Origin: Entophlyctis helioformis
Lineage: Eukaryota; Chytridiomycota; Chytridiomycetes; Chytridiales; Chytriomycetaceae
Length of the DNA stretch: 29,211 nucleotides
Direction: 5' to 3'
Assembly: GCA_025526915.1 (NCBI GenBank)
Contig: JAHLKH010000261.1
Location: forward strand, 1-29,211
A program made the position numbers and the translations under genes. Shown one piece after another: positions 23,882 to 29,211 of this stretch (position 1 is its first letter; each line of letters starts with the position of its first letter). A model generated the notes under the pieces. That model was not told the DNA's origin and ran no database searches. It worked only from the letters and a program-made list of their open reading frames with translations.

Positions 23882-26652
23882 TTACAGATCGTCCTTGGTC
23901 CATTGCGTGCGCGACTTGACAGCCTTCTTGCCCTTCTTGTGCGACTTTTTGCCAGGCAGGCCGGCGCCGGTGCCGTACAATGCCGCCGCCGTGCCCGAGT
24001 CTGCCAACGGAGCCGGCGTCTTGGGGCCGGCCGGCTTGGCATCGTTGGTGAGCATGTTCTGGTGCGGGTACAGCTTCGTGCGCGTAAAGTCGCGCGACGC
24101 CGCCTTGCCCGCTGTGCGCGCTTGCACGGTGTTGGTCATGAAAAACGACACGTCGATGGCCTTGGCGCTGGAGCCACCTGCAATGGCTGCGACTGCTGGC
24201 ATGCCGAGCGTCTTGGCTTGGCTCTTGCTAGCGGGCATGCTTCCGTCGGCCGTCTGTCATGGGCAAGTCCGCTTGTCGTCAGCAAGCCCGATCCCCGACG
24301 GCACAGCAAGGATGCAAATACAGACACACACACACCTGGAACCGCACGGGCTGATGCTCTTCCTTGAGCGTCAGATTGGCCTTGGCATGCAGGTCGGACA
24401 GGTTGAGCTTCTTGATGTGTCTCCGGAGAATGCGCTCGTCCTCGTACAGCTGGCGGTTGAACGCCGTGCCGTCGACGTTGGGCGGCGGGTGCACATACAG
24501 CAGCTTGCCGTTGACATAGTCCTTGAGAATGATGCGCGCGGCGCGTGCCTCGTCAGGATTGCCTTGGCTCGACTTGGCAAAGCCGCGCATGACTAGAGGA
24601 GTGGTGGGCGGCGGGAGTGGGTGGGGGCAGCGTGTGAGACTGTTGCACCGTCCCGCACGTGCACTGTAACACAAAGGAAGAGTGCGCTGAGATGGACAGA
24701 CGTACTGGCATAGGCGGACAGGAACTCTTCGGGAGTCGGCTGGCGGTCGACGAGATCGCCCTCGACGTTGCGCGTCTTGATGACAATGCCGTACAGCGCC
24801 TCGAGGTAGTACTTGGGAATACGCTGGCATACCAGACCGGTGGGTCCGACATACTCGCGCAGCTGGTCGATGGGCAGCACTCCGTTGATGACCATCTCGG
24901 CCTTGGTGGTTGCAAACGACGGGAACACGAGACCGGGACAGTCACAGAGAATGAGATTGTCCGACAGGTGGATGGTCTGGAAGTGCTTGGTCTTGCCGGG
25001 CGTGGAGCCGACAGCGACTCGCTTGGCACCGACAAGCGCGTTGAGGGTAGACGACTTGCCGACGTTGGGGTATCCAACAAAGCCAATGTTGATCTTTGCA
25101 TTGGGGTCTGTCCATGCAAGCCAGGCCAGGCGTCAGAGTCAGCACATGGCTGTGATGGGCGATCCAGAATAGGCTATCTTCGCGTACCGTCCGTACGCGT
25201 GGTCGTAGGGCATTCCTTGAGCAGCAGGTCGACAAGCTGGTGGGCATCAATGATGCGGATACGCTCTGGCAGCGACTCCTGGTACCTGTAGTCCAGCTCG
25301 GCATCGTCCTCGTCCACCTCCTCTTCGGCATACTCGATGTACTCCTCCTCCTCCTCTTCCTCCTCTTCCTCGTCGTCATTGTCCGAGTTGGCGCTCTTCA
25401 TGTTCTTGACAAAGGCGACATCGGCAGCAAGCTCAGCAGCGCGGCGTTCGGCATCCAGCACCTTTTCCATGTGCTGCTTGGCGAGTGCGGCCGAGAAGAA
25501 CGTGTATCGGACGCCCTCTTTGTCAAAGTAGTCTGCCCAGGCCTCTCTGTCCATTGCGGCGTGGTTGTCAATGCAGACAGACGAGGTGAGCGAAGGGATG
25601 CGGGACATGGAAGCAGCAACAAACAGCAACAGCACACCTTTGCTCTGTGGTCAGGAGATCGGCCTTGTTGATGAGCAGCAGGTTCTTCTTGAGCGGCGAG
25701 ACTTCGTGCACGTATTTCTCGAGATCGCTTGAACGGAACAGCATGGGGTTGCGGGCATCGACAATCTGCACGACGAGATCGGACCGCTCAATGACACGCC
25801 ACAGCTGGCGCCACACCTCGATGTTGCGCTCGTACGGGGTCATGATGAGGCCCTGCTCCTCCTCGAGGAACACGAGGCCGCGACGCCAGTCGAGGAACGA
25901 GTCGTTTTCGGCGTGCTTGAGCTGTTCGGCGGTGGTGGTGCGCGTCCACTTTGGGCGGCGCGGCACCGTCAGCCGGTCCTTGTTCTCCTCGTGGAGCGCC
26001 AGCGTCTCTGCCTCCTTCTCGGGGGTCAGGAGGAACGGGTTCAAGTACGAGTTGCCCGGCAGGCCGAGCGAGCCAACGACTTGGACATTCAGGCGCTCTG
26101 TGCCAACAACGATGGAATGTCAGCGGACGATCGTTGGCTGGGGGGAGCTGTGCACCAGGCATCCGCGGCAGTGGGCATCCGCGGCGGTAAGTGCCAGCAG
26201 CGCCAGCAAGCCACACCGGCAGACACCTGCAGACAGATGACTCGACTGAGGGCGGATGACTGGCAGCAGGCAATCACGCACCGGCCGTGAATTCGGTGCC
26301 GGCCAGCTGGGCCGTGGACAGGAAGGCGTCGAGGTCGTTCTCCTGGGTGATGGACTGCATGTTGACCCAGTTGGTGGTCGAGTCGTTGATGTCTGTCGTG
26401 TGCTGCAGGCGGGCAGGCGGGCAGGCGGCCATCCACGCCGATTGCGCAGGCCAGGCGGGTCAGCAAGCGAGGTTGGCCTGCTGGCACATGGGCAGGCGGG
26501 GCAGACATCGCCAAGGCAGGCATCGGCACCAAGACGAGCAGACGCACTCGGATGGATCCATCGGGGTTGACGTGCACGGGCGTCGACGAGTTGTTGAAGC
26601 GAGAGCGGATGAGCGCACGGCCGAGGCCCTTTGCCTTTTTGGAGCCTGCCAT
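23882..26652 (-). CDS. LSG1: Large-subunit GTPase Lsg1 (60S export factor release)
   Basis: Lsg1 is a cytoplasmic circularly permuted GTPase that triggers Nmd3 release from exported 60S subunits. Seven exons in transcription order (26652-26548, 26402-26282, 26097-25638, 25546-25188, 25107-24706, 24592-24336, 24253-23882) sum to 2076 nt, 691 residues, with all phases consistent. The N-terminus MAGSKKAKGLGRALIRSRF and the block HTTDINDSTTNWVNMQSI are family hallmarks. The permuted GTPase order is visible: VDARNPMLF (188-196), G4 NKAD (219-222), then G1 GYPNVGKSS (360-368) and G3 DCPG (404-407). A Glu-rich acidic run lies in exon 4 between G4 and G1. Downstream, GNPDEARAARIILKDYVNGK and LLYVHPPP are typical of Lsg1, and the C-terminus is Lys-rich. 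It is convergent with SMC3. Confidence 0.96.
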
Positions 26653-26936
26653 TGCGACGAGGTCTTGAAGGTGGAGGTGGAAGTGTTGGCCTGAGTGAAG
26701 GCAACTCGAAAAAAAAAGTTGGTTGTTGGTTTCTTGGTGTTTGTGTTGTTGTTTGTGTTGTTGTGAACCAAACTTCGGCCCGATATTCATACAATTACCA
26801 AGGATTTTGGAATAAAATTCGACCAGAGAGGCGACGGATGCAAGCCCACATATCACACGATGGAAGGTTCGAGTCAGCAACGAGCATGCGACGACAGGCG
26901 AGCGAGGCACATCCAACAAGGTGCTCACCTTTATCG
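26653..26936 (-). other. Spacer between the Fanzor stop and LSG1 start; candidate guide-RNA/element-end region
   Basis: This 284-bp stretch holds the LSG1 promoter and 5' UTR, with a caacaa-rich run (minus strand of about 26705-26765) close to its ATG. It also holds the 3' flank of the Fanzor gene. In TnpB and Fanzor loci the guide RNA is encoded at or overlapping the 3' end of the nuclease gene, so this is where it would be expected. I cannot recognise a defined RNA or a terminal inverted repeat by eye. Confidence 0.4.
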
Positions 26937-29141
26937 TTAGAAAAAGTGACCCGTTAGGTCGATCGGGAGGTGCCCCGATTCAAAGAGTTGGTAGTCAAAC
27001 AAGTCACTGTGTGGGATGCAGGTCAAGTGACTTGAGGGCAGGCTGTCTGCGTGCTGGTCGCAGCTGGACGACGGATGGTCCGTGTCTTGAACGCTGCTGT
27101 ACAGCACGTCTTGAACGCTGCTGGTGGACAGGCTGATCTGGTCCCATGAGGCCACATGCGACTTGAAGTGTTTCCGCGTTTGAGGCTGTGGGACAACAGG
27201 CGGAGCATCTTGTGCACGCAGCTTGATGGCAGTATGCATTCTTGCGATGCTTTTGAGGTGCTCTGGCGTGGCTGGATTGCTGTCAGGTTTGGTGTGTGTC
27301 AAGTAGAGCGGCCGGTGTCCAAAGAGCAGATGCCACAGCGCGACCATCCCGATGTTTGTGGCTCCAAGCACATCGCGGTGGTAGACAGTCTTGCATGGTA
27401 TGCACTCGTAGCGTCGCAGGTTGGTGCGGTTCTCGTATGGGATCCGCTGCTTGCACTGCGGGCACATCTGGCTGGTCAGGTTCTCGTTGCAGCGGTAGAT
27501 CTGTGTGTGTGTGTGTGTGTGTGGTCAGTTGGTGCACAGATGGATGGATGGATGGACAGCGTGGCATCAGACGCACATAGGCATATCCAGATGACCGCAG
27601 ATGCCTGATAAGAAACCTCTCAAACACAGCGTGCCGGCCACCTTGACCTGTAAAGTCGATGCCAAATGCCCACACAACGGGAATGTTGTCCTCTGTCGAC
27701 TTTGTTCGGTCGACAGGGAGGCCTTGAGATGCAGCAGATGCGCGCTTTCCAGTGGTCGATCCTGCCAGCTTCATGATGCCCTCAAGAGCGTTTCCGCGAA
27801 TAGACGTGCTGTTGCTGCACATGGTGAACCGCTTGGCCTTGACCTTCTGTGGAATGCCATGTCATGCCATGCCATCCAGTGCAATCAGCAGGCGATCAAG
27901 CAGTATGGCGGTCATGGCAATGGACATCCAGAAACAGAGAAACCGTACCCGTGCATTCAGGAATGGTGTGCAGTAAGCATGGCAGCGCAGATCCCAAAAG
28001 GCTCTCTCGCCAGGCTTGACGTTTGGATCGACATGCTTTGCTGTCTTGAATGCAATGGCCGCCTGGATGTCAGCAGCCTTGGCAAGTCGGTCATCAAACC
28101 TGGCACAAGAGCCACGTGCTGTTAGCCGACCTGTTCAAGAGTGCGCGTGGCAGAGTCATTGCATGCATACCACCACTGAAGGTCACGCTCAGCTTGAAAC
28201 ATGCCAGAGGAGAGCACGTAGTTGGACTCGAGCGTATACGAAAAGTCTCTGAGGTCGACCAAGATGCTGGACGCGCCATACAGGTACCGCTTGCCCCAAT
28301 CAAAGCTGACAACACGAACAGTCTGGTAGCCTTGGTCAGTGAACAGATTGTTGGCGTTGATGATGTCACGCAGTCGCTGCGAGGCGTAAAAGTTGCGCTT
28401 GCCCTGTCGTGCCATGGCATGAGTGAGGAATGTGCAGTGCATGTGCACCAATGCGCGAGGTTGGCATGCAAGTGGCTTACAGGATTGGGCGTGTATGGCT
28501 TGGTGGCTGATGGGTCGGCTGGATCGGTGGCTGTGGATGGCATGTCAGTCGGCGTGGTCAACAAGTGTGCGTCTGGATTGGTACAGCAACTCACATGTGA
28601 CGTCCATGTGATCATGAGCATCACCAGCAAGACTGAGTTGCTGGGCTGAAGACGCCGCGTTGGGACCTGCAGATCAAGGCGGATGTCAGAACCAATGTGT
28701 GCACCATCGCATTCAAGTGCGCCACATACTGCGAGGCGACTCTGGACGGTCTGTGCGAAAGTCCAGAGTCAGCTGAGAGACGCTGTATCCATCGGTCTTG
28801 ATGCTGCCTAGTCTGACAGCCTTGGTTGGTCGCGCTGGGGGCAGGGCTTTGATCGCAGCCTGGATGTAATCCTCGCGCTCCTTGCCAACCAGAAGGAGTC
28901 TCTTGGCCTCAAGAGTCGCATCGGCAATGGCGTCTGCTCTGGCCTTGGCAGCCGCGTCCATCTGGACCTTAGCGTCTGCAGGCGTCTGGAAGCGTCGTGT
29001 ATCCGAGGCGAGTCCGGGGAGGAGAATGTCGAGAACGCAATCCTCGCGGCTTGAGCTGAAAGCGGCTTGTATGTCCTTGTTGGATGACGCAAGAGTCAAG
29101 GCTTGCGAGCCAGGCTCTTTGAGAAGAGTGGTTTGTAAGTA
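26937..29141 (-). CDS. Fanzor (eukaryotic TnpB-like RNA-guided DNA endonuclease), 5' end unresolved
   Basis: Fanzors are eukaryotic relatives of transposon TnpB that cut DNA guided by an RNA from the element end. Exons in transcription order, all with matching phases: A (from within 29141-29055) to 28730, 28666-28595, 28530-28481, 28403-28171, 28099-27949, 27846-27577 and 27500-26937. From the codon at 29099 they give 569 residues. RuvC-I is VVSFDWGKR (Asp at 28299-28301). The RuvC-II strand is VVWAFGIDF (about 27675-27650) without a canonical Glu. Next come NENLTSQMCPQC (Glu at 27483-27485), the second zinc pair CIPC (27395-27404), and RuvC-III YHRDVLGATNI (Asp 27372-27374). About 120 further residues follow the zinc ribbon. 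In-frame sequence upstream is open only to the TGA at 29142-29144 and lacks an ATG, so a first exon lies further right, possibly beyond the window; a good acceptor is at 29056-29057. By eye the base composition is less GC-rich than the neighbours. Confidence 0.88.
26962..26979. repeat. Short inverted repeat at the 3' end of the Fanzor gene
   Basis: The bases atcggg (26962-26967) and cccgat (26974-26979) form a perfect 6-bp stem with a 6-nt loop, 25 bases before the 3' end of the coding region. It may be chance. It is noted because guide RNAs of this family overlap the nuclease gene's 3' end and are structured. Confidence 0.35.
27502..27523 (+). repeat. (TG)11 microsatellite in the last Fanzor intron
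   Basis: Eleven TG units directly abut the splice acceptor of the intron at 27501-27576; on the coding strand this is a CA run ending in cacag before the exon with NENLTS. A short tgga run lies in the same intron (about 27540-27556). Confidence 0.95.
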
Positions 29142-29211
29142 TCAAATCATGTAAACATGGCATAACCAAGTGCGACCTTGTAACGGATGCTCGGTCGCGG
29201 TCACGTGATCC

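Follow-up and report, generated by a model that had tools for sequence, protein, structure and literature searches.

Multi-copy Fanzor elements without a recognised transposase are already known. The excerpts of PMC10432273 used here describe Spu-1 of Spizellomyces punctatus, an element of ~2.1 kb that has one ORF and is represented by 42 Fz loci and 134 "ghost" loci; in the same excerpts, the omegaRNA of SpuFz1 combines a 75-nt scaffold, lying between the stop codon and the 3' inverted repeat, with 14-15 nt of flank. Fanzor1 elements whose ends are unclassified or MuDR-like are reported from Rhizopus, Phycomyces, Mucor and Cyanidioschyzon in the excerpts of PMC3627910, where CMe-1A of Cyanidioschyzon merolae reaches up to ~150 copies, and Fanzor copy numbers up to hundreds are mentioned in an excerpt of PMC10711439.

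The locus described here adds a divergent, intron-rich member to these elements. The window, i.e., the whole 29,211-nt stretch analysed, is an entire contig of Entophlyctis helioformis (JAHLKH010000261.1), and its Fanzor is the 3' end of a high-copy transposon with terminal inverted repeats (TIRs) and 8-bp target site duplications (TSDs). Like Spu-1 and SpuFz1 as excerpted, this is a multi-copy TIR element with no recognised transposase and a Fanzor near its 3' end, with conserved noncoding sequence from the stop codon to the right inverted repeat, and with LTR element insertions in some copies. Unlike the Spu-1 of those excerpts, the elements here are mostly 7.2-9.7 kb long, occupy ~200 loci and have seven predicted introns in the visible half of the gene alone. 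With the Fanzor1 elements of the PMC3627910 excerpts they share the D-X-[TS][TS]-XX-C4-X-RD motif and carrier elements lacking a recognised transposase; compared by TSD length, the MuDR-like ones differ, with 9 bp in that source against 8 bp here. TnpB of IS200/IS605 is similar in having its RuvC domain and zinc ribbon near the C-terminus and in being encoded at the end of a mobile element, whereas the present gene has eukaryotic introns, sits in a TIR/TSD element in which no TnpA was recognised, and matches TnpB models weakly, below their cut-offs. The gene is probably of Fanzor1 type, as assigned by its TIR-element context only.

The minus strand from 29116 to 26937 encodes the RuvC/zinc-ribbon half of a Fanzor, which a preliminary description had recognised as a multi-exon gene. 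Removal of six GT-AG introns (63, 64, 77, 71, 102 and 76 nt) leaves a frame of 583 aa, open as far as a TAA stop at 26939-26937. The first exon in the window (28730..29116) is internal and was placed from the spliced frame and the comparison of intron 0 described below. Exons at 28595..28666, 28481..28530, 27949..28099 and 27577..27846 follow from the spliced frame and the alignment of copies, and the exon at 28171..28403, with the first RuvC aspartate (D213, in SFDWG), from the spliced frame, the motif and its conservation. The last exon (26937..27500) holds the NENLTS glutamate (E402), the C4 zinc ribbon (C409, C412, C429 and C432), the HRD aspartate (D439), a variable tail and the stop; it is supported by a PF07282 match, motif spacing and conservation. 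Gene prediction over-spliced the copies and served as a guide only. The one piece submitted to structure prediction, the start of exon 7 from five copies, gave a mean pLDDT of 44.9, too low for a usable model.

The catalytic and zinc-binding residues, placed by motif, stand in the order known from TnpB and Fanzor, as the preliminary description had claimed. Their spacing (D213, X=191, TSQM, the four cysteines, X=5, RD) agrees with the definition D-X(125,275)-[TS][TS]-XX-C4 zinc finger-X(5,50)-RD in the excerpts of Bao and Jurka 2013 (PMC3627910), and D213, E402 ahead of the TNB domain and D439 correspond to the catalytic triad outlined in excerpts of PMC11423790 and PMC10432273, in which D is followed by E before the TNB and by D on the last helix. 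Of the profile checks proposed at the outset, the one against the OrfB zinc ribbon was clear, with PF07282 matching the spliced window protein at E=2.9e-10 and 40.6 bits (curated cut-off 26.3). The TnpB models gave a divided answer: they match six of six copies, with E down to 2.2e-7, but far under their curated cut-offs. PDB sequence and profile searches returned no Fanzor, which indicates a large distance between this family and the structurally solved ones, SpuFz1 included.

How many copies there are can be judged in several ways. A 30-mer covering the catalytic site occurs 201 times at ≤3 mismatches in the 29.6-Mb genome, a 25-mer from the right end 166 times and the left end 99 times at the same tolerance, each with 0 matches for a reversed control. 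A PF07282 profile search of the genome gave at least 150 matches from 205 candidates, and a DNA search with the window region gave 54 matching pieces from the 40 candidates scored of 436, the nearest other copy among those scored being 98% identical over 2.4 kb. Some of these loci have common flanks: among 24 elements read on both sides, C436 has its flanks in common with C35, and C18b with C272, and C176 and C141 share >1 kb past the right end. Part of the copies may thus represent segmental duplication or allelic contigs, and these counts may be too high.

The right terminus of the transposon, its right TIR, lies at 26777..26801 on the minus strand, as placed by the 25-mer matches and by a border common to the copies. 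GGGCC, as this border reads, is in the same place in 35 of the 37 other copies aligned (L027 and L037 are the exceptions), and the sequence past it differs from copy to copy, apart from flanks common to L011 and L014 and to L021 and L025. Two copies traced upstream are ~98% alike as far as a common left end. The TIRs are imperfect, with 19 of 23 bp identical in a hand alignment of the ends. Among the 24 elements with both flanks read, the TSD is perfect over at least 8 bp in 11 (the reading extends to 9-12 bp where adjoining bases happen to agree), has one mismatch by reading in five, and has two or more or is not recognisable in eight; inspection by eye of the same 24 found no obvious TAM-like motif beside the TSDs. 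With TIRs and TSDs present, a Helitron was excluded. When the 59 of 99 left ends that are exact were paired with the 81 of 166 right ends that have 0-1 mismatch, 31 candidate elements resulted; three measure 1.0-2.2 kb, 20 measure 7.2-9.7 kb and eight measure 11.6-20.6 kb.

Two features of the ends vary among copies. Six copies (L001, L004, L005, L006, L008 and L036) have ~47 more common bases (ATTTGCCGGCGG...CACCCCT) past GGGCC, which suggests the same Fanzor module in an element with another end, and at the left end the C176 (L040/L044) and C7 (L041/L045) copies have a variable number of 28-bp subterminal repeats (CCTGGTGGAATCGSTGTGATTGGTCGAT). Elements comparable to the "ghosts" of Spu-1 were also sought. 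Among 100 noncoding cores, 26 appeared to lack a TNB match among the 150 matches listed; in contrast to the ghost loci of the Spu-1 excerpts, eight of the nine of these that were fetched carry Fanzor sequence by tblastn, some of it degenerate, and one (L096) has none, so we discarded the idea of ghosts here.

The copies give good evidence on the gene model. In 35 other copies from the same genome, GT-AG is retained at 202 of 210 intron positions, and hence the splice sites of the window are not due to chance; the eight exceptions are all acceptors, six in intron 1, one in intron 2 (L014) and one in intron 4 (L019). In a 2023 survey, Fanzors reportedly had introns and a rearranged catalytic site. 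Counted codon by codon over the window and 37 copies, with frame damage elsewhere in a copy ignored, D213 is retained in all 36 sequences covering this position, E402 and D439 in all 38, and the cysteines at 409, 412, 429 and 432 in 38, 38, 37 and 38 of the 38, respectively. Across 19 copies selected for undamaged frames in exons 3-6, the median dN/dS is 0.48 (170 pairs retained of 171), which argues for coding constraint. As for the introns, introns 2-5 (28594-27847) differ between copies by 0.069, less than 4-fold degenerate sites (0.10-0.14), while intron 1, at 0.127, is not below them; intron 6 (27576-27501) has TCCA and CA microsatellites whose length differs among copies. We also considered intronless retrocopies and rejected them: in L008 and L046 the long frames seem to result from reading through introns, and L047 has no 250-aa frame.

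The Fanzor copies are recombinant mosaics. We counted site conflict over 441 two-state sites in 23 sequences, including the window, for the region 29178-26777. Near sites conflict at a rate of 0.374, against 0.429 (sd 0.003) when permuted, and none of 1000 permutations was as low. The rate rises from 0.175 at <20 bp to 0.51 at 800-1600 bp and is 0.34 beyond. This low conflict at near sites, rising with distance, indicates that the copies have recombined.

At its 5' side the window copy is cut off, and the gene start at 29141 given in the preliminary description has to be withdrawn: 29141 is just the codon that follows a stop within an intron, and the first true exon starts at 29116. The remainder of this predicted intron 0 occupies 29117..29178 (minus strand), with donor GTAGGT and acceptor TCTCAAAG taken from sister copies, where the intron is 64 nt long. 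Exactly this donor, acceptor and length are common to 12 of 22 copies, and in 11 of the 12 the spliced reading (best of three frames) is stop-free. Six of the other ten copies have a stop-free intron 0 of 75-76 nt, and four keep stops (L020, L026, L027 and L029). In three of those four the stops stem from automatic placement, which settled on an acceptor further along or lacked a proper donor; L026 carries the 76-nt form and a single stop. In other copies the Fanzor continues upstream (672-aa ORF), and the corresponding N-terminal exons are absent from the window, as is the N-terminal WED/REC lobe of Fanzor/TnpB nucleases. Among the N-terminal ORF pieces of sister copies, none reaches a Pfam cut-off.

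Beyond intron 0, the last 33 bp of the window (29179..29211, plus strand) are an exact match to the start (TGTAACGG...) of a ~262-bp LTR-like repeat, inside which the contig ends. The repeat has TGT...ACA ends and also sits inside other Fanzor copies. Its 33-mer has 135 matches genome-wide, and the 100 listed include 11 pairs 6.37-6.47 kb apart, a spacing as for the two LTRs of one element. Reading by eye found 5-bp duplications in four of five copies (CCAAT in L019, CATAT in L026, TACTT in L013 and CGGTA in L037; none clear in L036), those of L013 and L037 belonging to a related repeat. In L037 the LTR-like insert (~245 bp, ~2434-2678) lies in the RuvC-I coding exon. The TGT...ACA ends, the 5-bp duplications and the paired matches led us to replace an initial reading of the 33-bp tail as a MITE, and 29178 was also rejected as the left end of the Fanzor element, as sister copies extend >5 kb further. 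As counted on the sister copies, the LTR entered after the second base of intron 0 (29178/29179). An entry point inside the 64-nt sister intron means that the LTR in the window copy is probably intronic.

The preliminary description read the window copy as intact, stating that all RuvC and zinc-ribbon residues were present and that no inactivating change was visible. With the LTR insertion and the contig end, this holds for the C-terminal half only, which has its residues and neither a stop nor a frameshift, and does not extend to the N-terminal half, which is off the contig. The copy could also be pictured as a dead relic, with an LTR inside it, a 5' half perhaps lost or broken and no functional Fanzor. 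The LTR at 29179 and the missing N-terminal exons fit such a relic, and so does the damage in many sister copies: under the window exon model only three of 35 others are stop-free (L015, L016 and L021), a count in which some stops sit in intron 0 or in alternative C-termini. It is harder to reconcile with the undamaged visible coding half, with dN/dS values against the window of 0.41-0.79 for the nine closest copies, and with the place of the LTR in a predicted intron, where the target duplication would restore the donor. Weighing these, we lean slightly against a relic.

The other end of the gene bears on how such an element might persist. The 3' region (26777..26979, minus strand) is a candidate omegaRNA scaffold, marked by a hairpin at 26979-26962 and an invariant core at 26892-26863. 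A 30-mer from this noncoding core is found at 181 loci at ≤3 mismatches (reversed control 0) and is exact in at least 100 of them; the catalytic-site 30-mer of the window is exact in six of 201, its commonest variant being one mismatch away. The constancy is local. Overall, 26937-26777 is no more constant (0.870) than exons 3-6 and the exon 7 core (0.866-0.933), with blocks of 0.97 at 26980-26961, reaching into the last codons, and 0.96 at 26880-26861 alongside variable ones of 0.72 at 26940-26921 and 0.81-0.84 at 26860-26801. The host flank beyond the terminus (26757..26776, minus strand) would be the guide; a TSD copy is expected in its first 8 bp (GAAGTTTG), and the 26-mer at 26776-26751 occurs once in the genome at ≤3 mismatches, as expected of a flank-derived guide. 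From the analogy with SpuFz1, we infer that the 3' region acts as scaffold and the flank as guide.

Taken as a whole, we think it likely that the locus belongs to a high-copy DNA transposon whose intron-containing 3' Fanzor uses the 3' region and flank as omegaRNA scaffold and guide and copies the element back at empty sites. The 3' region would be transcribed as the scaffold, with the adjoining host flank read as the guide. By analogy with SpuFz1 and TnpB, the Fanzor RNP would cut the same locus where it stands empty on a sister or homologous chromosome; the element would then be copied into the cut during repair, so that it keeps its place. In the window copy, the guide would direct the cut to DNA immediately upstream of LSG1. 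For the element to move at all, a transposase would be required that is encoded elsewhere or escaped recognition. Another mobile element, inserted in this copy, is the reason why the contig lacks the first half of the gene. With ~200 related Fanzor loci, close copies among them, a separate flank at every locus as potential guide and a candidate invariant-core scaffold, the genome amounts to a natural experiment, and small-RNA sequencing of one organism could read many guides at once and ask whether the empty sites of these loci are cut.

The conserved 3' core might instead be a transposase binding site at an ordinary transposon end, with no part in an omegaRNA. The core is near the TIR, the left end also has the subterminal 28-bp repeats, which are typical of binding sites, and, one pair apart, covariation over 26 copies does not support the fold that a single copy suggested for the 3' region (83.5% of cells paired, vs 83.5% for shuffles). 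Nor does the 209-nt 3' region of the window fold better than shuffles (z 0.28), or 149-nt pieces of the window (0.81), L005 (0.07) and L020 (-0.26); the pieces that do are a 49-nt window piece with the hairpin (z -2.76) and the 149-nt piece of L038 (z -2.56). A search of 26500-29211 against Rfam gave nothing up to E=1. Against a binding site are the highly constant blocks up to ~200 bp inward, into the last codons, the hairpin at 26979-26962, whose pairing is kept through a G-C to A-U double change in two of 26 copies, and a position and extent that resemble known Fanzor omegaRNAs as excerpted. We regard a binding site as unlikely and keep the scaffold reading.

No Pfam transposase was found in 14 ORF pieces from four copies, a subset of the ORFs and one with uncertain splicing. 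In the left half of the element, L040, L041, L048 and L049 have ORFs that are XPG/FEN-like by motif, two copies being 36 and 41% identical to a third. By eye, this upstream ORF has HVD(G), EAD, DSD and a final D across divergent copies, which we take to be those of XPG/FEN nucleases, in a comparison of three rows where one lacks the EAD stretch and one is composite. The XPG_I_2 model stays below threshold (12.2 bits vs a cut-off of 24.2), a search of the ORF with two other copies gave no Pfam family, a PDB profile search gave no nuclease, and the literature searched yielded no paper with Fanzor and XPG together. One could imagine ~200 recombining, intron-bearing Fanzors with an invariant-core guide scaffold and a FEN/XPG-like partner, spreading by two nucleases free of a transposase. 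In that case, RNA-guided cuts at empty sites and flap processing by the partner would lead to copy-back homing and to gene conversion between copies. We consider this improbable.

In coding sequence, short patches with few versions each are reassorted between copies, e.g., FQAERD, AHAEGI and ARAEHS near 28200-28176.

The preliminary description also took the gene to be possibly domesticated, but a host gene derived from a Fanzor and kept beside LSG1, for which its open reading frame, introns and essential neighbour might speak, is scarcely credible and was rejected on copy number and transposon ends: the gene has ~200 related loci (201 catalytic-site 30-mers) where few copies without transposon ends would be expected, the same introns in 35 other copies, a transposon end at 26777 and a nearest copy 98% identical. 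In a family this large, the intactness, introns and essential neighbour of any one copy are weak signs of domestication. LSG1 itself, a ribosome-biogenesis GTPase gene of approximate extent 24593..26652 on the minus strand and outside the element, is real, with a PDB phmmer match to Large subunit GTPase 1 at E=7.2e-110. It is merely the gene next to the insertion, with its ATG 124 bp past the element end.
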